Below, piece by piece: positions 8,520 to 9,139 of a DNA stretch of 50,177 nucleotides. Both the position numbers and the translations under genes were made by a program. How positions within the stretch are numbered: position 1 is the stretch's first letter; each line of letters begins with the position of its first letter. The notes beneath the pieces were generated by a model, which made no database searches, was not told the origin of the DNA, and saw only the letters and a program-made list of their open reading frames with translations. Location: positions 1 through 50,177 of the IMG/VR virus record IMGVR_UViG_3300044491_001277. One strand, 5' to 3'. Source of the DNA: a virus.

Positions 8520-8549
8520 TTGACATAAATAGCGCAGAAGTGTTATAAT
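8520..8549 (+). promoter_or_regulatory. strong sigma-70 promoter with an overlapping late motif
   Basis: Perfect TTGACA (8520-8525), an 18-bp spacer and perfect TATAAT (8544-8549). CATAAATA (8524-8531) within the spacer fits a T4 late element, so the site could serve both early and late. The predicted start near 8556 is just ahead of the riboswitch-like leader. Confidence 0.8.
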
Positions 8550-8557
8550 AACACTGT

Positions 8558-8611
8558 CGTTCATCCTCTTAGAGGACGCAAGTAAGTTGACTCGGAACGG
8601 AGCGTTCATCC
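8558..8611 (+). promoter_or_regulatory. glutamine-riboswitch-like leader (Downstream-peptide type)
   Basis: CGTTC (8558-8562) pairs with GAACG (8595-8599) to close the element. Inside are a CCTC-TTA-GAGG hairpin (8565-8575) and the conserved-looking ACGCAAGTAAG. The layout matches what I recall of the glnA/Downstream-peptide RNAs, which bind glutamine and occur in cyanobacteria and marine phages before very small genes. CGTTCATCC is repeated at 8603-8611 directly before the ATG, so GAACG can instead form GAACG-GAG-CGTTC. That competing hairpin places the GGAG ribosome-binding site in a tight loop, which predicts a translational ON switch. Confidence 0.7.
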
Positions 8612-8612
8612 T

Positions 8613-8909
8613 ATGAAACTTTTATTATTGTTGTTAACTCTGGTTCTTCCTCTCCCAGTTACGGCTGAGAATGAGAATAGGTATCTCACCTGTGAGGACT
8701 ATCAATTTCTTTTGGAAGGAGTAGAAAGAGCAAACATGGATGAATCAATTAAAACAGAAGTTCGTTTAGAACTCTTGTTAGCAACTGATCCTACATGTTT
8801 TGTTCATAGGACGCAAAAGGCAACTGAAGGAACGGGGCCTAAAAATCCAACTACTTCAGGAGTATCAAATGAAAGTCACGTATCGTGGTGTGTCATACGA
8901 CACAGTTGA
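8613..8909 (+). CDS. small secreted protein whose 3' end encodes a second riboswitch-like element
   Basis: The 98-aa product starts with a signal peptide (MKLLLLLLTLVLPLPVTA, cleavage before ENEN) followed by a helical, acidic domain (RYLTCEDYQFLLEGVERAN...) with Cys residues in LTCED and TCFVH. No stop occurs before 8909. The last 30 or so residues are therefore encoded by the second riboswitch-like element and the start of the DUF4278 gene, and they read as unstructured (TQKATEGTGPKNPTTSGVSN). An export role is inferred from the signal peptide. The protein may have lost an earlier stop codon. Confidence 0.65.
   Translation: MKLLLLLLTLVLPLPVTAENENRYLTCEDYQFLLEGVERANMDESIKTEVRLELLLATDPTCFVHRTQKATEGTGPKNPTTSGVSNESHVSWCVIRHS
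8811..8862 (+). promoter_or_regulatory. second glutamine-riboswitch-like leader
   Basis: TGTTC (8811-8815) can pair with GAACG (8830-8834) around GGACGCAAAAGG...CTGAAGGAACGG, which is close to the GGACG-AAG-GG...CGAAGGAACG core I recall for glnA-type glutamine aptamers. CTGAAG (8824-8829) is also the exact complement of CTTCAG (8854-8859), which abuts the AGGAG ribosome-binding site. Aptamer folding would therefore release the site. The element lies wholly inside the coding region of the 8613 gene. Confidence 0.65.
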
Positions 8910-9003
8910 ATATCAGAACAGACCCCAAGTTACCAAAAAGGTAAGTGAAGTCTATCGTGGTATCAAGCACACCGAAACTGTAAAAGTGGAGGTATCGAAA
9001 TGA
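8869..9003 (+). CDS. DUF4278-like small protein
   Basis: The 44-aa protein MKVTYRGVSYDTVEY... carries the YRGVSYD motif typical of DUF4278 peptides of cyanobacteria and cyanophages. It ends with a second short YRGIKH motif, so it is an internal near-repeat of the same unit. AGGAG lies 7 nt before the ATG, and the riboswitch-like hairpin overlaps it. It is coupled to the next gene by ATGA. Function unknown. Confidence 0.75.
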   Translation: MKVTYRGVSYDTVEYQNRPQVTKKVSEVYRGIKHTETVKVEVSK

Positions 9004-9113: not shown

Positions 9114-9116
9114 TAA

Positions 9117-9139
9117 GGGAGGTAACACTCCCTTTTTTT
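9117..9139 (+). terminator. rho-independent terminator
   Basis: GGGAG (9117-9121), loop GTAACA, CTCCC (9128-9132), then seven T. It ends transcripts coming from the 8520 promoter. Confidence 0.8.

Follow-up and report, generated by a model that had tools for sequence, protein, structure and literature searches.

Tandem glutamine-I-type aptamers in a cyanophage leader, the second split by a complete gene

We analysed a 50,177-base contig of a T4-like cyanophage, a marine cyanobacterial virus, taken from a virus record (the window), and find in it two glutamine-I-type aptamers in tandem, the second of which is split by a complete gene. The halves of aptamer 2 lie on either side of a small gene, ORF B, that occupies the loop of the P2 helix; a DUF4278 gene, ORF C, follows. 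Comparison with related viruses indicates that this architecture is real and widespread, and the gene-in-aptamer layout within a known riboswitch class appears to be undescribed in the open-access literature searched. As the layout recurs in well over 100 related virus sequences, a single RNA on one transcript probably controls both the nested gene and the following gene. We assign a probability of about 0.68 to the whole model, in which we infer that the tandem aptamers bind glutamine, that ORF C is turned on and that the start of ORF B is masked. The comparison shows the anatomy and its conservation, modular exchange, and selection on both the genes and the long-range stem.

Table 1. Positions of the aptamers, genes and flanking elements in the window
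Feature	Position	Strand	Details and basis
Promoter	8520-8549	+	TTGACA 8520-8525, 18-nt spacer, TATAAT 8544-8549; sequence
Inverted repeat AGTGTTA-TAA-TAACACT	8539-8555	+	immediately 5' of aptamer 1; sequence
Aptamer 1, compact	8556-8600	+	RF01739, 34.4 bits; pairs checked
Aptamer 1, stems		+	P1 8558-8562/8595-8599; P2 8564-8568/8572-8576; P3 8585-8586/8591-8592
Relay hairpin GAACG-GAG-CGTTC	8595-8607	+	P1 3' strand of aptamer 1 can pair with P1 5' strand of aptamer 2
Aptamer 2, 5' half	8603-8617	+	P1 5' strand CGTTC 8603-8607, A8608, P2 5' strand TCCTATGAA 8609-8617
ORF B, 98 aa	8613-8909	+	nested in the P2 loop of aptamer 2; phrog_13397, E 2.6e-5
Aptamer 2, 3' half	8803-8835	+	P2 3' strand TTCATAGGA 8803-8811, core CGCA 8812-8815
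Aptamer 2, rest of 3' half		+	P3 8818-8819/8824-8825 with GCAA loop; P1 3' strand 8830-8834; G8835
Competing helix of ORF C	8824-8859	+	CTGAAG 8824-8829 with CTTCAG 8854-8859
ORF C, 44 aa, DUF4278	8869-9003	+	PF14105, 27.7 bits, above the cut-off of 25.3
Small ORF, 35 aa	9000-9107	+	after ORF C; possible third gene of the transcript
Terminator-like hairpin AAGGGAG...CTCCC, then T run	9115-9138	+	sequence; hairpin in Rfam-search alignment

The original prediction described two glutamine-riboswitch-like leaders 250 nt apart, each in front of its own tiny gene. Two copies of the GGACGCAA...GGAACGG core are indeed present, at 8574 and 8809 (235 nt apart), and both belong to real aptamers arranged in tandem. 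However, the first gene lies inside the second aptamer, which is not confined to the region around 8800: its 5' half is found 195 nt upstream.

Aptamer 1 is, as judged from its sequence, a borderline glutamine-I-type aptamer with a predicted ligand site. The glnA RNA model (RF01739) matches at 8556-8603 just below its gathering threshold of 35 bits (E 1.3e-5, search space 751 bases); among compact relatives, scores rise to 39.4 bits and so exceed the threshold. All ligand-contact positions mapped from PMC6698751 are present (C8558, G8559, G8578, C8579, C8598, G8599 and G8600). The loop-E motif (AGUA opposite GAA) is incomplete, with the AGUA side present and the GAA side absent. The Downstream-peptide RNA model (glutamine-II, RF01704) gives 24.5 bits against a cut-off of 33, with several non-standard pairs in the second helix, and membership of this class was rejected. 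Of the two names proposed originally, glnA RNA is supported by the borderline match in the window, by above-threshold matches in relatives and by the contact nucleotides, and Downstream-peptide RNA is not. A scan of the window at the Rfam gathering thresholds returned zero matches; sub-threshold matches to Yfr19, the psbA 3' UTR, the sodium switch and PhrS (E of at least 1) resemble chance hits and were set aside.

The 5' half of aptamer 2, beginning with CGTTCA (8603-8608), comes directly after aptamer 1. Its P2 strands, 8609-8617 and 8803-8811, form nine Watson-Crick pairs in the register that the aptamer needs and close over the complete ORF B, whose ATG lies inside P2; P1 is formed by 8603-8607 and 8830-8834. 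The P1, P2 and P3 pairs around the junction are present in both aptamers of the window, and all ligand-contact positions are again found in aptamer 2 (C8603, G8604, G8813, C8814, C8833, G8834 and G8835, by the same mapping). Here the GAA side of loop-E is present and the AGUA side is absent. The GTTCA at 8802-8806, which had been taken for the 5' side of the second switch, is instead part of the P2 3' strand TTCATAGGA, and its partner is TCCTATGAA around the ORF B start codon; the true 5' strand of P1 is CGTTC at 8603-8607.

A local aptamer at ~8800 lacking P2 was dropped after comparison with S-PM2, P-SSM7, P-RSM6 and P-SSM4. S-PM2 has two complete aptamers with a core spacing of 54 nt: CGTTCA(YC) follows the GGAACGG of aptamer 1, and a short hairpin forming P2 separates it from the second core. 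P-SSM7, P-RSM6 and the window likewise have CGTTCATCC directly after aptamer 1, but there the small gene starts inside this sequence (CGTTCATCC-TATG) and the second core is reached only 3' of that gene. P-SSM4 has both aptamers split. By this comparison, aptamer 2 of the window is a split aptamer.

Pattern scans of IMG/VR yielded 153 distinct loci with both cores, part of them found by exact match to a core, and 151 could be classified. Each of the two aptamers is independently compact or gene-split across these cyanophage loci, going by their sequences: aptamer 1 and aptamer 2 are compact/split in 78, split/split in 35, compact/compact in 22 and split/compact in 16. The spacing between cores is bimodal (43-54 or 170-242 nt, with none between). 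All 115 split copies of aptamer 2 retain CGTTCA, and their contact nucleotides are identical (115/115). We counted 159 tandem pairs across the loci and hardly any lone copies away from contig ends; the window itself carries two apparent aptamers of the same class in one leader, the arrangement that defines a tandem riboswitch. On bacterial genome contigs, the phage-type core occurs as pairs only in two Prochlorococcus single-cell records, which are phage-like (L178 and L203), and the other 27 matches are single and scattered. At one locus (L136:6503-6825), three cores stand in succession, which looks like an additional duplication. Synechococcus phage RB11-B has a gene-split aptamer 2 whose 5' half is separated from aptamer 1 by an HNH endonuclease gene (L175:2501-3414). 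In several relatives (L002:3472-3657, L004:2517-2702, L030 and L062), a manA RNA (RF01745, 168-188 bits) is found a few hundred bases or less from the glutamine aptamers, so that two regulatory RNAs of phage metabolism adjoin.

The long-range P2 stem covaries and, by this evidence from alignments, is under selection. Positions 3, 4 and 5 of the split aptamer 2 P2 are paired in 100, 92 and 95% of distinct strand pairs, compared with 83, 64 and 49% expected from base composition, and C-G, T-A and A-T pairs are all common there. The strands of a locus form on average 6.0 contiguous base pairs with each other; combining strands from different loci lowers this to 4.1 (at most 4.8 in 5000 swaps). 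Watson-Crick pairing reaches 67% in register and falls to 18-29% when the strands are slid. In 65 comparisons between nearest relatives, we found six two-sided changes that are still paired, 19 one-sided changes and eight with a mismatch. P1 is invariant across relatives and hence uninformative for covariation. Split copies of aptamer 1 display the same trend in P2 more weakly, with only 3 bp in about a third of relatives.

The nested genes keep a fixed relation to the aptamers that enclose them. Their ATG lies 3-7 nt after CGTTCA. The stop codon is a TAA within CGCAAGTAAG (CGCAAG-TAA-G) in 42 of 54 genes in aptamer 1, and a TGA or TAA at a fixed place (C-TGA-AGG) in 92 of 102 genes in aptamer 2; some nested genes stop 5' of the core, including five of the aptamer 2 relatives. 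ORF B differs from most relatives: it reads through the core in an unusual frame, stops past the aptamer at 8907-8909, 95 nt after the core start, and shares 41 nt with the beginning of ORF C. Two relatives (L078 and L173) share its frame, with the stop 26 nt after the core start. The core is kept where the gene stops earlier or reads another frame, as in these two and the window, which points to selection on the RNA. This reading is tempered by the exact core match through which part of the loci were found; cores that were left free to vary, at loci chosen by the other site or by the protein, are nearly as uniform.

The nested proteins are mostly 49-69 aa long, with a hydrophobic N-terminus, also seen in ORF B, and two cysteines, invariant across the alignment (Cys27 and Cys62 of ORF B). 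In PHROGs they fall into families annotated as "unknown function". AlphaFold predicts with confidence a two-helix hairpin (residues 27-39 and 44-57) between the cysteines, and has low confidence at both ends, including the core-encoded C-terminal tail. With the tail left out, genes nested in aptamer 1 have a median dN/dS of 0.14 and genes nested in aptamer 2 one of 0.26, indicating that the nested genes are real and under purifying selection.

To avoid choosing loci by the aptamer, we searched with two nested protein families after removing the aptamer-encoded tails. The gene lies between CGTTCA and CGCA...GGAACG in 80 of 80 loci of the first family and 79 of 80 of the second (159/160 in total). 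In the second family, the ATG follows CGTTCA by 4-6 nt in 76 loci, the offset is slightly longer in two (L361 and L364), and the 5' side of one is lost at a contig end. The sole exception (L322:1501-1677) is a free-standing gene of the nested family that has its own terminator and no aptamer, possibly a donor or an escapee.

Pairs of closely related loci differ in what P2 contains. The P2 of aptamer 1 holds a gene in one and a hairpin in the other of two loci with flanks 98-99% identical (L128/L167), a case repeated in a second pair (L037/L096), and the P2 of aptamer 2 holds either a hairpin or a gene in two loci with flanks 95% identical (L062/L068). The HWTIKC protein family occurs in both aptamers, with the tail GRK in aptamer 1 (L010) and DAKxD in aptamer 2 (L052, L090 and L109). 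The tail changes with the aptamer slot: the RNA dictates the last residues. At another locus (L033), ORF C is nearly as in the window and the nested gene is different; its sequence suggests a recent cassette exchange.

The expression platform of ORF C is a helix between CTGAAG and CTTCAG adjoining AGGAG, as the original prediction had correctly recognized. It overlaps the ribosome site (AGGAG, 8858-8862) and is mutually exclusive with aptamer 2. The six-pair version, CTRAAG/CTTYRG, is found at this site in about 129 of the 153 loci, with slight covariation and one informatively varying position only. In the window, it pairs with a probability of 0.92 when the RNA folds freely and of 0 when aptamer 2 is enforced. 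Ligand-free folding prefers this helix and gives P1 of aptamer 2 a probability of zero, a modelled value expected for a ligand-dependent fold and no proof of one. Since the helix excludes aptamer 2, glutamine is predicted to turn ORF C on, in agreement with the host switches: in cyanobacteria, most glutamine aptamers are located 5' of DUF4278 genes and increase expression (reviewed in PMC6316151). Of the ORF C products that were read in relatives, nearly all share the YRG...YRG pattern of the window. Earlier, ligand binding had been proposed to turn on both a DUF4278 peptide and a secreted protein. For the DUF4278 gene this agrees with the family match, the conserved helix and the host ON switches; the gene of the "secreted protein" is the one nested in the P2 loop, and activation is doubtful for it as masking of its start codon is predicted.

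The GAACG-GAG-CGTTC hairpin is also present as proposed, although its CGTTC, read then only as a strand opposing the ribosome-binding site, is the P1 5' strand of aptamer 2. The linker between the aptamers is 3-6 nt long in all 153 loci. In the window, P2 together with this hairpin has an energy of -8.8 kcal/mol versus -7.3 for P1 and P2 of aptamer 1, so that ligand on aptamer 1 could shift the equilibrium and thereby free aptamer 2.

We propose the following mechanism, of which glutamine binding, the ON direction for ORF C and the relay are putative. Without glutamine, the P1 3' strand of aptamer 1 would pair with the P1 5' strand of aptamer 2 and block the latter; the ORF B ATG would be accessible and ORF B on, while the CTGAAG/CTTCAG helix would cover the ORF C ribosome site and keep ORF C off. 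With glutamine, aptamer 1 would close and release the P1 5' strand, and the halves of aptamer 2 would join through P1 and the nine-pair P2 and rebuild the glutamine site. CTGAAG would then leave the competing helix, and the ORF C ribosome site would be freed. The ORF B start would become buried: it is built into P1 and P2, and folding of aptamer 2 should therefore mask it. This glutamine OFF effect is the weakest step, and we give it slightly less than even odds; translation of ORF B could begin while the 3' half is still to be transcribed, and the effect would then be weaker. Only tentatively do we extend the model to the P2 loop being a standard cyanophage slot for exchangeable genes and each gene-bearing aptamer a two-way switch, in which glutamine would shut the nested gene and open the next, the tandem aptamers folding in relay.

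Alternatively, P2 may be a landing or exchange site in which insertion is harmless, with aptamer 2 acting on ORF C as before and ORF B outside glutamine regulation. The swapping of hairpins and genes, the use of one gene family in both slots with a tail set by the slot, the HNH endonuclease gene between the aptamers of RB11-B and the low-confidence tail encoded by the core would all fit. We regard this as possible and somewhat doubtful: the ATG lies inside P2 and not deep in the loop, and some coupling to folding is hard to avoid.

It is also conceivable, and in our view unlikely, that ORF B serves as a translation sensor, a ribosome at the stop codon in CTGAAG freeing ORF C, which would then be switched on by glutamine or by translation of ORF B. 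In most relatives, the stop codon does lie within the blocking strand (CTGAAG or CTAAAG), and coupled upstream-ORF control is known for the riboswitch gene ppe2 of M. tuberculosis (PMC11260477). However, with the distant stop of the window, ribosomes would pass through the strand instead, and in the five aptamer 2 relatives mentioned above they would stop before the core.

The insertion might instead have killed aptamer 2, leaving half-sites that are relics kept as the start region and stop signal of ORF B, with only aptamer 1 at work. Gene and aptamer do share nucleotides, with the ATG in P2 and the stop codon in the core. Yet the long-range P2 covaries, CGTTCA is invariant, the core is retained where it is untranslated or in another frame, and the competing helix, which needs aptamer 2, is kept; relics are thus improbable. 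The two independent local switches originally proposed find a weak RF01739 match at 8799-8838 (14.6 bits against a cut-off of 35), but we consider them scarcely credible, as U8801 would replace a ligand-contacting C, the local P2 is absent, and relatives usually lack a local GTTCA next to the 3' half while the CGTTCA after aptamer 1 is invariant.

The tandem model with a gene-split aptamer 2 has partial counterparts among known RNAs. Group I introns carry ORFs in peripheral loops and likewise show a structured RNA hosting a gene in a loop with its fold retained; the phage aptamer differs in having no splicing or ribozyme and in a predicted role in translation control. With glutamine-I riboswitches, the window shares the P1/P2/P3 junction, the CGUUCA and GGAACG strands, the contact nucleotides, the DUF4278 target and a predicted ON-type platform. 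It differs in the whole gene held by the P2 loop of aptamer 2, the incomplete loop-E, the score of aptamer 1 just under the cut-off and the long-range pair next to P1, which is C:G (CGCA...GAACGG) as in glutamine-II, unlike the consensus CGG...GAACGC. The CGUUCA...CGCA...GGAACGG core and the C:G pair are likewise shared with glutamine-II; in contrast to that class, the window keeps P3 and has no convincing second helix of the glutamine-II type. A glutamine-II aptamer in two pieces, split artificially in its linker, still binds glutamine in vitro (PMC6698751), making a split aptamer physically plausible.

Glutamine riboswitches are known in phages (PMC9964418, PMC9004378), and 157 doublets and four triplets have been described in a survey of tandem glutamine riboswitches that excluded arrangements with intervening ORFs (PMC9481103). 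Those doublets resemble the window in having two aptamers for one ligand in one leader and differ in that the phage ORF lies within one of the aptamers. At metE and ppe2 of M. tuberculosis, upstream ORFs accompany B12 riboswitches, including a short ORF in the B12 aptamer (PMC11260477). There too, translation of a short ORF located within or beside the riboswitch has an effect on the gene that follows; the ligand and structure are different, and the phages have a conserved, exchangeable family of genes of 50-69 aa in one loop across the group. In the open-access literature searched, we came across no report of a conserved gene residing in a glutamine aptamer; priority is not certain. Riboswitch searches assume one short continuous aptamer, and gene-split aptamers are invisible to standard covariance searches; the tandem survey, in turn, discarded cases with intervening ORFs. 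If the halves jointly bind glutamine, one RNA would directly couple ligand sensing to the translation of both the nested gene and the gene that follows. Phage infection would then be linked to the nitrogen state of the host through DUF4278 proteins, which are related to the N-terminal region of IF17, the host's glutamine synthetase inactivating factor.

Neighbours in the window include a 2OG-Fe(II) oxygenase, identified by a Pfam match, and, from reading of the ORFs, ThyX, PhoH and an exonuclease, in the gene order that follows the homologous locus of S-PM2. Many of the 143 distinct relatives compared have similar promoter-like boxes 5' of aptamer 1, and the promoter stretch of the window contains ATAAATA (8525-8531), which resembles a T4-type late promoter. 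The inverted repeat is centred on the TATAAT box, and in relatives its arms vary and still match (GGGTATGCTAACATACC, TGTGTTATAATTAACACA and GGTCTATAATAGACC); the 36 nt 5' of aptamer 1 have a mean perfect stem of 6.05 bp in relatives versus 3.67 in shuffles. The repeat could form a 5' hairpin in the RNA if transcription starts upstream at the ATAAATA-like box, or could be an operator. No convincing family was found in PHROGs or Pfam for the 35-aa ORF after ORF C. The terminator-like hairpin beyond it is likely to mark the end of the transcript.
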